Below the pieces are notes generated by a model. The model was not told where the DNA came from, ran no database searches, and worked only from the letters and a program-made list of their open reading frames with translations. DNA of 25,156 nt from a virus, in IMG/VR virus record IMGVR_UViG_3300018476_000040, positions 1 to 25,156 of that record. One strand, written 5' to 3'. The position numbers and the translations under genes were made by a program. How positions within the stretch are numbered: the first letter of the stretch is position 1; the number at the start of each line of letters is the position of its first letter. Shown piece by piece: positions 6,173-24,042 of this stretch.

Positions 6173-8336
6173 CTGTACTTACTCCACCCATCATTTGTCG
6201 GGCTGCATCCGGTATTTGTAGTGGAGCAGACGGTTGAGTATCTGCCGTCGGCGTATTTTGAGACATAAATTCCTCTTCGAGGACGTCCGCTCCGAACTGC
6301 GCTTCAATCTTCGCGGCATCGAGCAGTCCTTTCACAATCATTTGATCGCGTCGGAAGTCGTCGTCTACACGGAGTTTTCGGTCCTCGAAATTCGACTTCG
6401 AAATAGCCGTAGCCATAGTAACGCGATTCTTTTCCATCTGGCTCTGCGCAAGAAGGGTGGCTGCATCGGGTTCCTTCGGCGTTTCCGCAATTGCCTTAAG
6501 CTGTTCGGGTGTAACTTCTTTGTAATATCTGCCGACATTTTTGACATTCGCGATGGCGAGAATATCTGTGAGCGTATTGCGGAACTCTTGGACGCCGCAG
6601 AGCGGATTCTCCACGCCGAACTGAGTCATAATCGTCGTCTGGGTCTGCTTGACGTCTTGCAGCACCATAAGCCGCGTCATATCGGAACCCTTGCCGAGGG
6701 TCGGGTTAACCGAAATGCGCATGGTAGGATCGTAGGTGGAAGGATTGACGGTCGTCCACTTCCCCGCCAGCTTGATCGTGCGTTCCGCGTTGGGCTTGTT
6801 GACAATTTCCCGCAGCAGCCCCTGGAACAGCTGCTTCATGCCGGTCTCGGCGAGAATGCGAGCACACAGTTCGATGCGTTCTTGGGCACCCTGAACGATT
6901 GCGTCGATGCCAGTTACGTTAGTAGATTGCAGAGCTTTAGGATCGACGCCCTTCGACGCATCCGAGATACCCGTCCGCGATTGCCGCAGCTGTTCCATAA
7001 TTCCGAACATTTCAAAGACGGGCTGGCCGACGAAATTATGGTTAATGGACATAACTGCGGCGTTGGGGTCGCCAGTGGTTCTGATCGGAGCGCCAATTTC
7101 GTCATTGAGCACATCGTCAGAATTGGTCGTGGTCTGATTGAAGACAGTTCGAGGCCAGATCGATTGTGCCAATGAGTCAAGGGAACCTCTCAACATGTTC
7201 GTCTTGATTACCTGGATATCTTTCACAAGATCGGCAGGAGTATCGCCCACCAGAGTATGAGGTTCAGGGTCAGGGCACCAGACAGCGAAGTTGGCATGCT
7301 GTACCACTTCATCACTAAGAATAAGATGATCATCCCCGATAGTGTGAATCTCGCGAAGCTCAGCGATTCCGTCTCCGTCCTTGTCAATGCGGATAAAATA
7401 ACAGCCGTACCTAACGTCCCAAGCATCGCTCAAGTCTCCTTGATCGAGGCCGGAATTACGGAACAAGCGGTCTGTTGAGTAATTATCCGGTTGTTGGTTC
7501 ATATAATCGGTCAGTTCGTCCAGATCGTAACCCATCTTGACTAGTTCTGACACGTTTACGATTTGGTCGTGACCGATCAGCGGCGCGTAAGCAACGTCCT
7601 TGGCCTTGCGGGATACACGGAACTCGTCGAGCGGCACCGAAACGATACGTGTGATCGGCTTCGACTTCGAGAAGCGGATACGGAGCTTTCCAATTACCCC
7701 CGGAATAACCGGGTGGGGTTCTTGCTCGAGCACTTCCATGCTCGGATTCTCGCTGGTGAGGTATTGCAGACCCTCCGGAGTTACGTTTTGATACTCCTGC
7801 TCGGTCACTTCCTCGTCGTTGTCGGTCCACCAACGCACAACGCCCGTCTTGCAACGCAAGGCGTCTTTACAAATGTCGTGGACGATCAGGAACCCCGGGT
7901 TATCCTCCCAGAGGATGTAGTTGAGATACGCCGTACACTGCTTGGCCATATCTTCCTGGCCTTCGTGGTTCGGCGAGCAATTCACAACATTCTCGGTACT
8001 AGTAAAAATGCGCATGAGGCTAGGAAGAATAGCCATAACAGTATCCCGAAAATCAGTGCTAACTGCACTTGATTTTCCCTCGCCTTCCTGCTCTGGATAC
8101 TCTGCGTAAAAGTATTTAAGATTTTCCTCACGGGCAGGCCCCAACTCGCTCTGTTCAAACGCAACTGCGTCATCAATAAGCGCTCGCACCGTATAATCAT
8201 ACACGGTATCGTCTTCGTCACCCGAGGCTGCTTGCGTTACGCCAGCCGGGGGCACCTGAACACCTAGCAATCCGGTCCCGGGGAAGTCGAGCCGTTCCAT
8301 CGCTTCGCCTTCGATCGGGGCAAATTGCTTGTTCAT
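6132..8336 (-). CDS. portal protein, P22-like
   Basis: A 734-aa protein, the right size for the podoviral portal, the dodecameric ring through which DNA is packaged and ejected. It has the expected N-terminal segment with VRALIDDAVAFEQSELGPAR, a helix-rich crown-side part and SLMRIFTSTENVVNC, all like P22-type portals. Later parts include GDTPADLVKDIQVIKTNMLR and SRTGISDASKGVDPKALQST, segments of the wing/stem region that I recall as conserved in such portals. The tail is rich in Gln, Pro and Ala and probably disordered. The ATG overlaps the terminase stop (ATGA), as expected for a terminase-portal pair. No frameshift is seen. The family subtype is recalled; the portal call is strong from size, context and motifs. 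Confidence 0.9.
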   Translation of the reverse strand: MNKQFAPIEGEAMERLDFPGTGLLGVQVPPAGVTQAASGDEDDTVYDYTVRALIDDAVAFEQSELGPAREENLKYFYAEYPEQEGEGKSSAVSTDFRDTVMAILPSLMRIFTSTENVVNCSPNHEGQEDMAKQCTAYLNYILWEDNPGFLIVHDICKDALRCKTGVVRWWTDNDEEVTEQEYQNVTPEGLQYLTSENPSMEVLEQEPHPVIPGVIGKLRIRFSKSKPITRIVSVPLDEFRVSRKAKDVAYAPLIGHDQIVNVSELVKMGYDLDELTDYMNQQPDNYSTDRLFRNSGLDQGDLSDAWDVRYGCYFIRIDKDGDGIAELREIHTIGDDHLILSDEVVQHANFAVWCPDPEPHTLVGDTPADLVKDIQVIKTNMLRGSLDSLAQSIWPRTVFNQTTTNSDDVLNDEIGAPIRTTGDPNAAVMSINHNFVGQPVFEMFGIMEQLRQSRTGISDASKGVDPKALQSTNVTGIDAIVQGAQERIELCARILAETGMKQLFQGLLREIVNKPNAERTIKLAGKWTTVNPSTYDPTMRISVNPTLGKGSDMTRLMVLQDVKQTQTTIMTQFGVENPLCGVQEFRNTLTDILAIANVKNVGRYYKEVTPEQLKAIAETPKEPDAATLLAQSQMEKNRVTMATAISKSNFEDRKLRVDDDFRRDQMIVKGLLDAAKIEAQFGADVLEEEFMSQNTPTADTQPSAPLQIPDAARQMMGGVSTDAERPAEAPPQQL

Positions 8337-9655
8337 CTAAGTCTCCTCGTCGGACTATTGTGCATCCGCTTCAGGTTGCGCCGCAATGCGCCTTCCCCGA
8401 TGCCGATCACATTGGAGCCGCCAATCATGAAGGCGAGCATATTTAAGGATACTGCGCCTACCCGGAATGCGTCGGAGGCGTGCGAGGCCCAGTTGTGGAC
8501 TGGCTTTCCGGTTGGCCCTTTGTGGTAATTTCTGAGTGCAGTGTATCCAGGTTCGGTTCGAACCTTGTCGAACCAGCACATTCGGAGAACTGCTCGCGTG
8601 GCCGAAATCCCATCTTCAACAGTGTGTGCCGGACAAACGAAGACGTTGGGGAGCATACCATCCAGAACTTCTTTTCTGGAGACCCCAGTTCCAAGCTCTC
8701 GTGCTTTGATGTCGTGGGGGAGTACGTGAACCCCATATTGGTAAGGCTTGCCTTTAATTTGCCCCACGTAGTGTTCAAGCCCTTTGCCAGTGTTCGCATA
8801 GTAGTCGATAACATGGAGTTCTCTCCCGCACTTCTGCACGAACCAGATCACCATTTCGTCGTCGATACCAAGGTCCCACCACGTCATAACGAGGGAATTG
8901 GGGTCGTACGGAACTCCGCAAATCTGGCTCGGGGTTGCCATCTGAATGTCGTTGAGTACTTCGCCGTAGTAGGAACCCTCCACCGGAGCGTCGAAGGAAC
9001 ACATCATTTCACGGGCGAACTCGTCGCTCGTCATGTCCTTCCGCATCTCTTGGACTTCCAGGGGGTCCAGAGCGTCGGTTTCCGTCACTGGTATGTTGAA
9101 TATATCCCAATCGTCGGACTTCTCAGCCCGCTTCTTCAATTCGTGGAAGTGATCATCCCCGTTAGACGTGCCAGAAATGATACCCCACCCGCCATAGTCA
9201 GCAAGGCAAGGACGCACAACGCTGCCAAGCATAGAAGGATTAAGCATAGGATATTCATCCGCGACAATCCCATCGAAATACAGCCCTCTCATTCGTTCGT
9301 AAGCAGCGGAACCGCCGTATAAGTTAATCATAGCGCCGTTCGGCAGAACTACTTGAAGGTCGCCTTCCACAACACGAACTGATGGGAGAACCCCAGTGTA
9401 ATACTTGTAATACCCCCAAACAAGGTCTTTGGCTTGCGCAAAGGATGGCCCTATATACCCATAACGCGGCGGTGGGAAGGTCCGTTTGTTCTCGAGAGCT
9501 TTTCGGACAGTGTGGTTGCACAGCGCGACTGTCTTTCCGGCTCGTCGGTGGGCGACGACGAATTTCCATCGCTTCAAGCTTTCGTGAAGCGGCCGAAAGT
9601 GCACCCGTGGAACGTAGGGAATGGTAATCCGGGGTGCTTGTTCTTCCAGGCTCAT
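8333..9655 (-). CDS. terminase large subunit
   Basis: A 440-aa packaging motor: ATPase that pumps DNA into the head plus nuclease that cuts the concatemer. Residues 35-42 (AHRRAGKT) form the Walker A, IVADE at 130-134 the Walker B with the catalytic Glu, and SGTSN around 161-165 the coupling motif. The nuclease part begins with WWDLG (Asp261), continues with HVIDYY (Asp284) and LPHD (Asp315), and ends with the family-typical HASDAFR near the C-terminus. All key acidic residues are present, so the enzyme looks intact. The ATG follows directly on the stop of a 30-codon microgene (TAG-ATG). The end overlaps the portal start. The length is near the usual 430-500 aa of podoviral terminases. Confidence 0.95.
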   Translation of the reverse strand: MSLEEQAPRITIPYVPRVHFRPLHESLKRWKFVVAHRRAGKTVALCNHTVRKALENKRTFPPPRYGYIGPSFAQAKDLVWGYYKYYTGVLPSVRVVEGDLQVVLPNGAMINLYGGSAAYERMRGLYFDGIVADEYPMLNPSMLGSVVRPCLADYGGWGIISGTSNGDDHFHELKKRAEKSDDWDIFNIPVTETDALDPLEVQEMRKDMTSDEFAREMMCSFDAPVEGSYYGEVLNDIQMATPSQICGVPYDPNSLVMTWWDLGIDDEMVIWFVQKCGRELHVIDYYANTGKGLEHYVGQIKGKPYQYGVHVLPHDIKARELGTGVSRKEVLDGMLPNVFVCPAHTVEDGISATRAVLRMCWFDKVRTEPGYTALRNYHKGPTGKPVHNWASHASDAFRVGAVSLNMLAFMIGGSNVIGIGEGALRRNLKRMHNSPTRRLR

Positions 9656-9748
9656 CTAAATGTCTCTTCCCGCCTGTAAATGGCACCAAATAACGTAACG
9701 ATGGAACCCCCACCAATACGGATTAGCGGGGGACCATCTAATAATCAC
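9656..9748 (-). CDS. possible 30-aa Trp/Tyr-rich microprotein
   Basis: A 30-codon frame with a GTG start that overlaps the previous stop as GTGA and ends in TAG directly against the terminase ATG. It reads through WSPANPYWWGFHRYVIWCHL and is unusually rich in Trp, Tyr and His. It fills exactly the space between two coding frames with coupled ends on both sides, which is the main evidence. No family is known to me. It could instead be leader sequence that only carries ribosomes to the terminase gene. Confidence 0.4.
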   Translation of the reverse strand: MIIRWSPANPYWWGFHRYVIWCHLQAGRDI

Positions 9749-9828
9749 TGTATCGGCCTCATAATGGCAAACATTACCGCTAGGAATATAAGCATAACGC
9801 CGAAAGCAGTGAGGGGGTCTACTTCCAT
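9745..9828 (-). CDS. 27-aa single-span membrane microprotein
   Basis: Reads MEVDPLTAFGVMLIFLAVMF and continues to AIMRPIQ. Residues 8-23 form one hydrophobic helix with an acidic N-terminus and a basic Arg after it, so an inner-membrane peptide is likely. The ATG overlaps the stop of the Acb2/Tad1-like gene (TAATG) and the TGA overlaps the next GTG. Coupled spacing on both sides and a clean hydrophobic pattern support a real gene. Function is unknown; a lysis- or membrane-related role is only a guess. Confidence 0.6.
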   Translation of the reverse strand: MEVDPLTAFGVMLIFLAVMFAIMRPIQ

Positions 9829-10034
9829 TACTTCTTCGCCGTGGTAACCAGTTTAACCGCCCACATCGCGGCCTCTTCGAATGCCGTCATGGCCAACGCC
9901 GCTAAGCGCGGGTCCATGTGCTTGTGTTCCTCACAGAAGTCGATACAATCGGCGGACCATCGCTTGATCTTGTCGACTTTGTTGTCCTGCGACGGGTTGA
10001 AGGATTCCCGTACCCTCTCTGCCCCGATGCTCAT
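9828..10034 (-). CDS. Acb2/Tad1-type hairpin protein
   Basis: A 68-aa two-helix protein. The ATG at 10034 is chosen because it overlaps the previous stop as ATGA; a start ten codons earlier is possible but would lie deep in the upstream gene. The key stretch is ERVRESFNPSQDNKVDKIK, then SADCIDFCEE and a second helix ending AFEEAAMWAVKLVTT. The pattern R-x-x-FNPS, K-V-x-x-IK and EEAAMWAVK is the one I recall for the Acb2/Tad1 hairpin family. Characterised members soak up the cyclic nucleotide signals of CBASS and Thoeris defence. The protein would act in the cytoplasm. It lacks the extra C-terminal parts of some members, so ligand choice cannot be read. Being beside the terminase genes suggests late or constitutive expression. 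Family fairly likely; sponge activity inferred. Confidence 0.7.
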   Translation of the reverse strand: MSIGAERVRESFNPSQDNKVDKIKRWSADCIDFCEEHKHMDPRLAALAMTAFEEAAMWAVKLVTTAKK

Positions 10035-10327
10035 GCGATGCTCTGCGCGACGTGCTTCTCGCACTTTTCGCCGATGGCGCGGCGTTGCTCCATGAGATAC
10101 GTCAACACTTTCTCGACGGAGTTACGCGTGGCGTCGTTCGTCCCAGATGACGGCAGACGCTTCATCTGATCCGAAAGCATGGCAGCCACCGAGACTGCGT
10201 TATGCAGTGCGATGAAGTGTGCCTCCTCGTCGCGCTGCTGCTTAAGCTGCGCTTCCGTCAGGCGTAACTGTGGCTTTGGTAGGGGAATGTCTCGCTGCGC
10301 GATGTCTTTACCCTGTGTCTCGTTCAT
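10031..10327 (-). CDS. 98-aa helical protein, unknown
   Basis: I do not recognise this protein. It begins MNETQGKDIAQRDIPLPKP, has a long helix with LTEAQLKQQRDEEAHFIALH and a second with VEKVLTYLMEQRRAIGEKCEKH. It is charged and soluble. It overlaps the small-terminase gene by 20 bases and the Acb2/Tad1-like gene by 4, so the three are translated together. AAGGG about 9 bases before the ATG acts as ribosome site. A role as terminase accessory or regulator is possible from its place, but nothing in the sequence shows it. Confidence 0.7.
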   Translation of the reverse strand: MNETQGKDIAQRDIPLPKPQLRLTEAQLKQQRDEEAHFIALHNAVSVAAMLSDQMKRLPSSGTNDATRNSVEKVLTYLMEQRRAIGEKCEKHVAQSIA

Positions 10328-10802
10328 GTTCGATCACCCTTCCCTGTACTTCTTGCGGTTCTTTCTCTTCTTCGCCGAAAGTTTGGCCGTCGCCCCACTG
10401 GACGACAATAGTTCCACCAGCGGAGTTCTTGACGGTAACACCTCCAGAACTTCCAGATCCCCACCCGCGATGCTTCCCGATGTTAGTAAGTACGAATCGA
10501 GACATGGTGTCCCGTCGCGAAGGATCCAATTCGTCCGTAAGCGCATTGTATACGTTGCTTTCCGCTATGTCAACTAACCTATCAGCTGCTTCTTGCATTT
10601 CAGCGGATAGGTAAGGGGACTTCTTAACGAATGCGCGTAGCCGTATGGAGGTTATCTTAAGTAGCTTCGCCGCTTCAGTTATGTTCCCTGCCGCCATCCA
10701 GATAGCCGTCCGACATTCCTCGATGTCGAGAGGAAGTTCGAACGGTCGCTCTGAATACGGCATCGTAGGCAGAGCGACCAGATCGTCGGGAATTTCCGTC
10801 AC
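10308..10802 (-). CDS. terminase small subunit-like protein
   Basis: A 164-aa protein placed where podoviruses carry the small terminase, the DNA-recognition ring that selects phage DNA for packaging. Residues 30-60 carry a helix-turn-helix (ECRTAIWMAAGNITEAAKLL then a recognition helix with RLRAFVKKSP). A helical oligomerisation part follows, with AESNVYNALTDELD and SRFVLTNIGKHRGWG. The C-terminus is acidic and Gln/Glu-rich. The start is a GTG with only a distant AAGGA, because the preceding gene ends just 14 bases earlier. A full promoter lies inside its codons (10573-10545) and points to the genes downstream. The HTH and context make the call likely; sequence identity to a named TerS is not claimed. 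Confidence 0.75.
   Translation of the reverse strand: MTEIPDDLVALPTMPYSERPFELPLDIEECRTAIWMAAGNITEAAKLLKITSIRLRAFVKKSPYLSAEMQEAADRLVDIAESNVYNALTDELDPSRRDTMSRFVLTNIGKHRGWGSGSSGGVTVKNSAGGTIVVQWGDGQTFGEEEKEPQEVQGRVIEHERDTG
10545..10573 (-). promoter_or_regulatory. internal promoter in small terminase gene
   Basis: TTGACA (10573-10568), exactly 17 bases, TACAAT (10550-10545). Both hexamers match the sigma70 consensus at 11 of 12 positions. It lacks the GC after -35 and the TGn of the other copies. It would drive the 98-aa gene, the Acb2/Tad1-like gene, microgenes and large terminase. Confidence 0.5.
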
Positions 10803-11635: not shown

Positions 11636-11664
11636 ATGATAACACGTGCGTAGGCGCGTGTCAA
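11636..11664 (-). promoter_or_regulatory. promoter of leftward late block
   Basis: TTGACA (11664-11659), 17-base spacer ending GTGT, TATCAT (11641-11636). Start expected near 11629, about 24 bases before the first late gene's ATG. This is the main leftward promoter of the divergent region. Confidence 0.8.
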
Positions 11665-11970: not shown

Positions 11971-12462
11971 ATGTCCCGTAAGTCTCGCGCCCTCGCCGCC
12001 CCCGTCGCCGCCTTCGTCGACGCGCCCGACACCCCCACCCTTGCCGACGTGCTCGAAGCCCTCCCGGGCGTCGATGCCGAAGTCGCCGAGGACGTCGCTC
12101 GGAAGGGCTCGGTGGTCCGCGCCACCTACAAGAAGCTCTACGCGGCTCGCGCCTCCGAGGCGGGCCTGCCGAAGGCGGCCCAGCGCTCCTGCTGGGATTG
12201 GCTCGCCCAGCAGTTGGCTGGCGAAGTCCTCGTCGACGGCAAGTTCGTCGAGTCCCGGTTCCGCGCGCTGCTCGACGCGAACGGCGTCCGGAACGACCAC
12301 TGGGGCACCGGCGAGAAGCGCACCAAGGGCTGGGAAGGCCGCCTCCGAATGACCGGGCGGCTGGCGCTCCAGAAGGTGGTGGCCAAGCAGGGCTTCCTCG
12401 CCACGGCGGACGGCGAGGAACTCCCCGCCCCCGAGGACTTCGTCGCCAAGCACACCCACTGA
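11971..12462 (+). CDS. GW-GR-RMTGR family protein, paralogue 1
   Basis: A 163-aa protein, one of four related proteins in the window. Residues 1-45 are an Ala/Pro/Asp-rich lead. Residues 47-142 are the shared domain: VVRATYKKLYAARA, a helix with CWDWLAQQL, a hydrophobic helix FRALLDANGV, and the signature KGWEGRLRMTGR at 119-130. It is followed by LALQKVVAKQGFL. The many Arg residues around the signature suggest nucleic-acid contact, but no known domain is recognised and the fold is unknown. The ATG has TAGGAGC 7-8 bases upstream. It is the first gene behind its own promoter and is followed by a 9-bp GCAA hairpin. I remember similar hypothetical proteins in other phages, none with a known role. 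Confidence 0.85.
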   Translation: MSRKSRALAAPVAAFVDAPDTPTLADVLEALPGVDAEVAEDVARKGSVVRATYKKLYAARASEAGLPKAAQRSCWDWLAQQLAGEVLVDGKFVESRFRALLDANGVRNDHWGTGEKRTKGWEGRLRMTGRLALQKVVAKQGFLATADGEELPAPEDFVAKHTH

Positions 12463-15375: not shown

Positions 15376-16062
15376 TCACTCCTTGGGGAGGTAACGCTGC
15401 CGCCATTCCATCGGTGCCTCGAACGGCTCCTCCACCCCACTTTCGTGCGGCTTCATCAGGAACCCGGTCGTTGCGACCTTCTTCTGCAGCGCAACTCGCC
15501 CCGTCATCCGGAACCGGCCCTCCCATCCGCGGGTTCGGCTGATCCACTTCGAATGGTCGATTCCGTTCACGTTGAGCAGCGCGACAAAGGCGCGAATGTC
15601 GATCTTCCCCTTGTCATCGAGGCAGAACTTGGCGATCTCTTGTGCCAGCCAGTCCCAGTTCGACCGCTTGGCCGCCTTGTTGGTCAGCCCTTGCGCCGCC
15701 GCGTTCTCCGCGTAGCGCTTCTTGAACTTGACCTTCACCACGCCGCCCTTCTCCTCCTCCTCGGGGGGCTGTTCCTCCGCGTCCTCGGGCTGGATTTCCT
15801 CGGGCTGTTCCTCGTCCGCCTCGTCCAGTTCCGCCTCGGTGGGCGGCTTTTCGGCGTCCTCACGGAACCGGGCGACCTTGCCCTCCTCGATGGCGCGTGC
15901 CATAAGGTCCAGGCCTTCCTGCGTAGGTTCCAACACGATCACTTCCTGATCGACGTTCCCGCCCTGATTCGCCTCGGCGGGAAGGACGCCCGCGCGGAAC
16001 TTCTCGGCAGTTCGTGCCTGTGCTTCCGCCTTCGTCTCTTTGCGCTTGCTATTACGTGCCAT
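15376..16062 (-). CDS. GW-GR-RMTGR family protein, paralogue 2
   Basis: A 228-aa, three-part protein. Residues 1-25 are basic (MARNSKRKETKAEAQARTAE). Residues 30-68 contain VIVLEPTQEGLDLMARAIEE. Residues 69-105 are a nearly pure Glu/Pro/Asp linker. Residues 107-204 are the shared domain: VVKVKFKKRYAENAA, NWDWLAQEIAKF, the helix FVALLNVNGI, and RGWEGRFRMTGR at 178-189, then VALQKKVATTGFL. It is closest to paralogue 1, sharing WDWLAQ and the R-M-T-G-R block. The ATG at 16062 is preferred because GGAGC lies 8 bases before it; the GTG two codons earlier is too close. It is the only leftward paralogue and has its own promoter. Function unknown; a linker plus Arg-rich domain would fit a DNA- or RNA-binding protein. 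Confidence 0.85.
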   Translation of the reverse strand: MARNSKRKETKAEAQARTAEKFRAGVLPAEANQGGNVDQEVIVLEPTQEGLDLMARAIEEGKVARFREDAEKPPTEAELDEADEEQPEEIQPEDAEEQPPEEEEKGGVVKVKFKKRYAENAAAQGLTNKAAKRSNWDWLAQEIAKFCLDDKGKIDIRAFVALLNVNGIDHSKWISRTRGWEGRFRMTGRVALQKKVATTGFLMKPHESGVEEPFEAPMEWRQRYLPKE

Positions 16063-16104
16063 GTTCACTGCTCCAGAACGGTCGCACCATCGCGACCTGA
16101 CTTA

Positions 16105-19292: not shown

Positions 19293-19841
19293 ATGACTAA
19301 CCGAATCAACGGCATTCCTGTTGACGGAGGAATAGCATACAAGGAGGGTGTAATGGCTGGCGACTGCCCTTACATGGAAGAAGACCCCGACTTCAATCGA
19401 TGGAATGAGGAATGGGATGCGGCAGCGGACGACCACGAAGAACACACCAAGACACAACCCAAAGTGGGATCGGTTGTTACGAACCGGTATAGAGCGCTAT
19501 ATTCGGAAAGCGGACACCCCACCCATTGCGGAGATGCTCTTGCCACCCTCCTCAATTCCCTATGCAGCAATAAGGCCGGTACAAACCTCGAGCTATTTGA
19601 AAAAATTTGTGCCGCCAACGGAGTTGATCTTACGAAGTACAATCGTACCACTAAAGGATGGCAAGGACGACTCCGAATGACGGGACGTAACCTGCTGGCG
19701 AAGCGAGTCGCAGCAAACCACGGCAGGTTATACATGCCGGAAGAGATGGGAGGTGATTTCTACCAACTAGACGAGGACTGGGTTTACACTACGCAGAACA
19801 AATACAAGCCAAAAACGGAGCAACAAGATGTCACAGGGTGA
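19293..19841 (+). CDS. GW-GR-RMTGR family protein, paralogue 3
   Basis: A 182-aa protein. Residues 1-57 are an acidic lead with DPDFNRWNEEWDAAADDHEE. Residues 58-145 are the shared domain: VVTNRYRALYSESG, a helix with CGDALATLLNSL, LFEKICAANGVDL, and KGWQGRLRMTGR at 121-132, followed by NLLAKRVAANHGRLYMPEE. A Tyr/Lys-rich tail follows. AGGAG lies 8 bases before the first ATG; a second in-frame ATG at codon 21 has an even stronger AAGGAGGG. Two protein forms, 182 and 162 aa, are therefore possible. It lacks the WDWLAQ block of paralogues 1 and 2. It is first behind its own promoter and overlaps the next gene by 14 bases. Confidence 0.85.
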   Translation: MTNRINGIPVDGGIAYKEGVMAGDCPYMEEDPDFNRWNEEWDAAADDHEEHTKTQPKVGSVVTNRYRALYSESGHPTHCGDALATLLNSLCSNKAGTNLELFEKICAANGVDLTKYNRTTKGWQGRLRMTGRNLLAKRVAANHGRLYMPEEMGGDFYQLDEDWVYTTQNKYKPKTEQQDVTG

Positions 19842-23637: not shown

Positions 23638-24042
23638 ATGACCGAAGAGACCGAAGTCAAGACCACCAAGTCGATCGTTCCGTCGAAGTACGCTGGTCGT
23701 TACAAGAACGGCGGCGAAGACGAACTGGCGCAGTTCATCAAGGCGCAGTGCGTCAGCGAGGGCAACTTCCACTTCTCCAAGTTCTTTGAACTGATGGCGA
23801 AGAACGGGATCGCCCAGGATAAGGTCGATCATTACGCCAATCAGGTCGCCGAAAAGCGACACGGCGCAGAAGGCCGCGCTCGCATGACCCTCCGCAACAT
23901 GCTCGCCACGTTCGTTCGCAAGAACGGCAAGGCGATCGCTCTCGACGGCAGTGAAGTACCGGTGAACCTCCCCAAACCGGCCCTCACCGGGGCGGCGAAG
24001 GCTGCACAGGAAGCTTCCACGGCCCAAGAGGCTGCCGAGTAA
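23638..24042 (+). CDS. GW-GR-RMTGR family protein, paralogue 4 (divergent)
   Basis: A 134-aa protein. Residues 12-100 are the shared domain in its most divergent form: IVPSKYAGRYKNGGEDELAQ, FHFSKFFELMAKNGIAQDKV, and HGAEGRARMTLR at 75-86, where the usual GW becomes HGA and the last Gly becomes Leu. Then follow NMLATFVRKNGKAIALDGSE and an Ala/Glu-rich tail. AGAGGAA lies about 8 bases before the ATG. The gene has its own promoter, a long folded leader and two hairpins after it, so it is strongly insulated, as fits a highly expressed single gene. Codon use looks regular. Function unknown. Confidence 0.82.
   Translation: MTEETEVKTTKSIVPSKYAGRYKNGGEDELAQFIKAQCVSEGNFHFSKFFELMAKNGIAQDKVDHYANQVAEKRHGAEGRARMTLRNMLATFVRKNGKAIALDGSEVPVNLPKPALTGAAKAAQEASTAQEAAE

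Follow-up and report, generated by a model that had tools for sequence, protein, structure and literature searches.

A candidate Acb2-like nucleotide sponge in an exchangeable slot between the putative small and the large terminase genes of related phages

The described systems closest to the protein discussed here are two families of phage proteins that bind signals of host immunity. Vs.4, the Acb2 protein of bacteriophage T4, binds cGAMP via Y8, H11, K23, R79 and F82, and binding is lost when its hexamer interface (L29, A66, A73, A77) is mutated (PMC10097602); Jenson et al. found the homologues of Vs.4 in phrog_717 (PMC10097602). In Tad1, the gcADPR pocket needs loops of the N-terminal beta domain (PMC12043709). 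On the host side, RNAs from terS and from the terS-terL boundary activate the CBASS of staphylococci (PMC10686824), and Thoeris is set off by the major capsid protein (PMC12578639).

We describe a 68-aa protein encoded in a 25,156-nucleotide stretch of viral DNA (IMG/VR record IMGVR_UViG_3300018476_000040; hereinafter, the window) by a minus-strand open reading frame with an ATG at 10034 and a stop codon at 9828-9830. The original prediction placed this protein in the Acb2/Tad1 hairpin family, and rightly so: in a Pfam profile search, it matches PF24729 (Acb2/Tad1 hairpin) with 42.7 bits (E 6.5e-11; cut-off 27), and the motifs FNPS, KVDKIK and EEAAMWAVK occur in the order foreseen, at F12-S15, K19-K24 and E53-K61. 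There is, in addition, a weak match to phrog_717. A search of IMG/VR yielded 28 relatives with 51-93% identity, PF24729 was matched by all 22 relatives that were aligned, and the alignment of 22 sequences of this subfamily, which we denote type A, contains 20 invariant columns. The dN/dS value is 0.07 against the nearest gene (L001), with a median of 0.11 over 40 usable pairs, so that the gene is under strong purifying selection (dN/dS of about 0.1). Given the PF24729 score, the relatives that all match the family and the purifying selection, the reading frame is real rather than a chance one, and its product is a new member of PF24729, a name that does not prove the function of the protein. 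No match was found by tblastn at E 0.01 in 50,697 phage records, and neither a PADLOC match nor a meaningful NCBIfam match was obtained; a search with the subfamily consensus reached a Pasteurella phage at 5e-4, the other matches being weaker.

In the AF2 model (mean pLDDT 88), an N-helix (residues 3-7) is followed by the two helices of a hairpin (18-36 and 42-64), with no strands, and the two best matches among the viral models of BFVD are annotated Acb2/Tad1 hairpin proteins (TM 0.83); the helical hairpin on which the original prediction had staked its family call is, then, what modelling returned. Because the predicted structure consists of the N-helix and the hairpin only, the beta domain being missing, the protein is Acb2-like rather than Tad1-like in its modelled layout. 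Membership in Tad1 was considered and dropped, given that the N-terminal antiparallel beta-sheet domain is absent (68 aa, no strand in the model). A broader type A profile, when compared with the PDB, detected both Vs.4 (E 0.017, ranked below a chance match to a designed protein) and Tad1 (E 0.31) weakly, among designed-protein matches. For the sister subfamily, type B, the top PDB matches of the slot profile are Acb2 homolog 43, Acb2 p26, Vs.4 and Tad1 (6e-8 to 0.003), and types A and B match each other in hhalign at 97% (E 4.5e-11). The link of type A to the solved Acb2 proteins appears weak by direct search and firm only via type B. Foldseek listed no Acb2 in the PDB for the 68-aa model; Foldseek and VIA-align alike returned generic helical proteins only from the PDB and are uninformative for a hairpin of 68 aa. 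The G-protein gamma subunits that came up in a direct phmmer search of the PDB (E>0.4), and again with the type A profile, represent chance similarity.

The comparison of the binding pocket, with details drawn from Vs.4 and reviews, is based on the pocket and hhalign alignments, with which a MAFFT alignment disagrees around FNPS. Here, Y8, H11, K23, R79 and F82 of Vs.4 align to F12, S15, K24, K61 and T64 of the 68-aa protein, such that the aromatic residue (F12), the lysine (K24) and the basic residue (K61) are kept in kind and H11 and F82 are not; the interface alanines A66, A73 and A77 align to A48, A55 and A59. Since the solved Acb2 p26 has an alanine aligned at the F82 position, the loss of F82 alone does not exclude binding. 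The altered pocket residues, together with the short tip of the hairpin, could also be read as signs of a hairpin that has ceased to bind nucleotides and is retained because it interacts with a host protein in some other way, but this reading is highly improbable, given that type A as a whole preserves the aromatic position, K24, K61 and the interface alanines and that purifying selection on the gene is strong.

On the minus strand, the genes follow in the order putative TerS, 98-aa ORF, sponge, 27-codon ORF, 30-codon ORF, TerL and portal (Table 1). The identity of TerS, for which the family signal is a sub-threshold HTH_8 match only, rests on position and conserved gene order. The sponge gene had been described as coupled on both sides, and it does overlap its neighbors on both sides, but the partners are small reading frames (98 aa upstream, 27 codons downstream) rather than the terminase genes. 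The 172 nt from the sponge stop to the TerL start are filled by the 27-codon and 30-codon ORFs, the latter ending directly at the TerL ATG (TAGATG). RNA folding of 9620-10060 gave nothing unusual (z -1.3), with no sign of a special structured RNA. The 98-aa ORF was considered as a further sponge and set aside, with no significant fold or family support.

Table 1. Features of the terminase operon and its surroundings (positions in the window)
Feature	Position	Strand	Basis and remarks
Large terminase subunit (TerL), downstream slot edge	8333..9655	-	PF03237, 34.6 bits; phrog_2; 60.6% to Ochrobactrum phage OH terminase
30-codon ORF, GTG start, GTGA overlap	9656..9748	-	Sequence; expression may or may not occur
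27-codon ORF, hydrophobic	9745..9828	-	Sequence; TAATG overlap with sponge stop; expression may or may not occur
68-aa Acb2/Tad1-hairpin protein, type A	9828..10034	-	PF24729 match, AF2 model, BFVD matches
98-aa helical ORF (type E), no family	10031..10327	-	ATGA overlap with sponge gene; relative in L041 (33-34% identity)
Putative small terminase subunit (TerS), 164 aa, upstream slot edge	10308..10802	-	Next to TerL in 61 loci
Promoter-like site, extended -10, ahead of the leftward operon	11636..11664	-	Consensus scan only, 11/12 matches

The position in the terminase operon, which the original prediction had singled out as unusual, is real, recurs in relatives and is common to other sponge subfamilies and to Tad2-like genes. 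Relatives were collected by a TerL scan of IMG/VR, a query that favors no slot content, and 26 non-redundant ones that have a TerL identity of 73% or more and a slot that could be read were compared. In these related phages, the TerS-TerL gap is a variable slot that ranges from overlap to about 1.5 kb. A PF24729-type protein is present in the slot of 14 of the 26 relatives, in three subfamilies: type A in seven, type B in five and type C in three, with L007 holding A and B in tandem. Type B proteins score 68-73 bits against PF24729 and type C proteins 26.6-32 bits, one C member being just under the cut-off. The slot is empty, with TerS joined directly to TerL, in four relatives (L040, L044, L057 and L058), and is likewise closed in Ochrobactrum phage OH; in seven slots, there is nothing but helical proteins of type D or E or further genes that belong to no sponge family, and a single slot contains only a membrane-like protein, with the proviso that IMG/VR contigs are fragments, so that a sponge gene missing from a record may lie elsewhere in the phage. 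In 25 records of close relatives (461 kb), all 12 PF24729 matches at E<1e-6 fall inside the slot, which makes up about 2% of that DNA. What is new here is this exchangeable sponge slot between the putative TerS and TerL; a literature search for a link between terminases and sponges turned up nothing describing a TerS-TerL slot, which is weak evidence of novelty.

Other slot genes deserve mention in their own right. Type D genes (L003:3463-3651, L045:284-454, L046:2949-3173 and others) encode a helical pattern, 'PGSxERT...AEDALAYIQKL', in the register of the sponge hairpin, and type E is grouped with them as slot genes of that pattern with weak profile links to PF24729 type B. Among 11,701 ORFs, the type D profile had as its next-best matches three proteins of type B, a type over-represented there, and one of type E (E 0.03-0.06), with no reversed-sequence matches; this is suggestive, and only suggestive, of type D proteins being very diverged sponge hairpins. 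A membrane-like protein ('SxLWFLIGxIxLxGVVYLAIWVIE...PIPE..KQGIWV') recurs beside slot sponges (L003:3632-3847, L017:6442-6663, L054:3189-3407, L055:3064-3291, L016:2056-2373), and no family match was found for the L003 copy. Because endolysin-like genes also occupy the slot in some relatives (L017:6840-7475; L048:1091-1633, by eye only; L115:4506-5231), it appears to be a general late accessory site.

On a TerL tree, to which a targeted scan contributed five of the type B loci, the slot label requires 14 changes against a minimum of 4, compared with a mean of 19.9 in shuffles, so that it is still clustered. The clearest pair is L050 and L056, in which the flanks match at 97% identity (181 bp, TerS side) and 94% identity (5.25 kb from the TerL start), and between these flanks L050 carries type C and L056 type B; similarly, the slot of L054 holds type B and that of L055 no sponge, the TerL-region DNA being 94% identical. 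The gene of the window and that of L001, a phage with a TerL not recognisably related to that of the window, share 84% nucleotide identity over exactly the gene and none beyond, and the L002 gene shows the same gene-only similarity at 78%. Additional type A genes have portal and scaffold-like genes on either side in L006, lie close to genes of the capsid region in L014 and belong to a replication-like region in L024, these three regions having been assigned by eye from gene size and order. Comparison of these loci shows that sponge genes are exchanged in place and have moved as cassettes between phages. A further observation is that a type A-like gene occurs in seven identical copies (L093-L099) on different contigs of a single Rhodobacteraceae MAG, as if carried by a multicopy or transposing phage.

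Outside the close relatives, TerL was detected for 27 type B relatives, and in eight cases the type B gene is no more than 1.5 kb away from it, compared with 1.9 such cases predicted for random placement (Poisson p 7e-4); two of these eight loci look like near-copies. In the Pasteurella phage, the homologue lies immediately upstream of TerS-TerL, and a Providencia phage has a homologue among its internal virion genes; placement among late genes is, then, recurrent, though not found everywhere. This recurrent proximity to TerL, along with the location between the putative TerS and TerL in many relatives, is what one would expect of a packaging or terminase accessory factor that employs the Acb2 fold structurally. 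We nevertheless regard such a role as quite improbable: L040 and L044, with TerL 81-82% identical, join TerS and TerL directly with no hairpin, subfamilies are swapped between near-identical phages, and close copies reside in the replication, portal-scaffold and capsid regions of unrelated phages. With gene-only similarity between unrelated phages and copies in other regions, a packaging role is not to be expected.

The neighbors of the hairpin genes point in another direction. In L020, the gene that follows type A encodes a Tad2-like protein (PF11195, 81.5 bits), and in the 60 records searched, all five Tad2-like genes, found in four records, adjoin a PF24729 gene, inside the slot in L020 and L043, outside it in L006, and as two in a row in L027; the Tad2-like and PF24729 genes overlap by ATGA in L020, L043 and L006. 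In L027 (3543-4262), the two Tad2-like genes form a tandem of three sponge-family genes with a type A gene. No Tad2-like gene was found in the window itself. The linkage of two different sponge families in these gene neighborhoods is the strongest indication from context of an anti-signalling role. The same partners point to Thoeris pressure in some relatives, PF24729 covers Tad1 as well, and the pocket differs from that of Vs.4 at F82 and H11, so the protein could be a sponge whose main ligands are signals of the Thoeris type (gcADPR isomers, His-ADPR) or some other nucleotide rather than the signals of CBASS. Against this, which we deem unlikely, the beta-domain loops that the Tad1 pocket needs for gcADPR (PMC12043709) are absent here, and a second Thoeris sponge beside a Tad2 partner would presumably be redundant.

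Taken together, the 68-aa protein is probably an Acb2-like nucleotide sponge for CBASS, located in an exchangeable slot of a late operon, and, by analogy with Acb2, CBASS cyclic nucleotides are its most likely class of ligands. The hairpin subunits would assemble, probably into a hexamer as in known Acb2 proteins, and the assembly would hold cyclic di- and/or trinucleotides from the host CBASS cyclase, such that the sequestered signal would fail to trigger the suicide effector. The position suggests late expression: from a slot in the late operon, the sponge would be made together with the late proteins and would be present when terminase RNA and capsid proteins can trigger CBASS and Thoeris. 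Because RNA of terS-terL can trigger CBASS and the capsid protein can trigger Thoeris, a sponge encoded alongside the terminase genes would appear in the cell along with the triggers. Conceivably, although we consider this doubtful, the sponge is built into the alarm-raising transcript itself, so that countermeasure and trigger come from one message simultaneously; if true, selection for joint expression of sponge and trigger would account for why the slot recurs at this site, which lies between terS and terL and upstream of the capsid gene.

The type A proteins, likely sponges for immune signals, comprise a compact subfamily to which phage isolates contribute only distant relatives. The slot offers a genomic rule for finding more sponges, namely, to inspect the TerS-TerL gap; near-identical phages that have naturally exchanged one subfamily for another lend themselves to comparing ligand ranges; and the slot position makes it testable whether phages time the sponge to coincide with the triggering of host signalling by terminase RNA or capsid. 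Separately, the window encodes a paralogous family of four proteins (11971-12462, plus strand; 15376-16068, minus; 19293-19841, plus; 23638-24042, plus) that share the segment 'NG...RGW(E/Q)GRxRMTGRxxLxxxVA' and reach no Pfam cut-off.

Among the known systems, Tad1 (PDB 7uav, 8kbb and others) has the C-terminal helical hairpin domain in common with the 68-aa protein, which, unlike Tad1, is without the N-terminal beta-sheet domain, and Tad2 (PF11195) is another sponge family with an unrelated fold that adjoins PF24729 genes in four related records. Acb2 homolog 43 (PDB 9ptq, 76 aa, six chains in the entry) is also a short protein of the PF24729 type and is the top PDB match of the sister type B, not directly of the 68-aa protein. 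The resemblance to the Acb2 proteins Vs.4 (PDB 7uq2) and p26 (8h2j, 8ixz) includes the N-helix followed by a two-helix hairpin and the aromatic, lysine and basic positions of the pocket, and, with Vs.4, extends to the interface alanines and the MW..(K/R) signature. Compared with these two, the protein is shorter (68 against about 88-94 aa), as the original prediction held with regard to some studied members, with a much shorter hairpin tip, and, unlike Vs.4, it has threonine for F82 and serine for H11. The genomic setting differs too: vs.4 of T4 lies near regB and vs, among non-structural genes, whereas the 68-aa gene lies beside the terminase.
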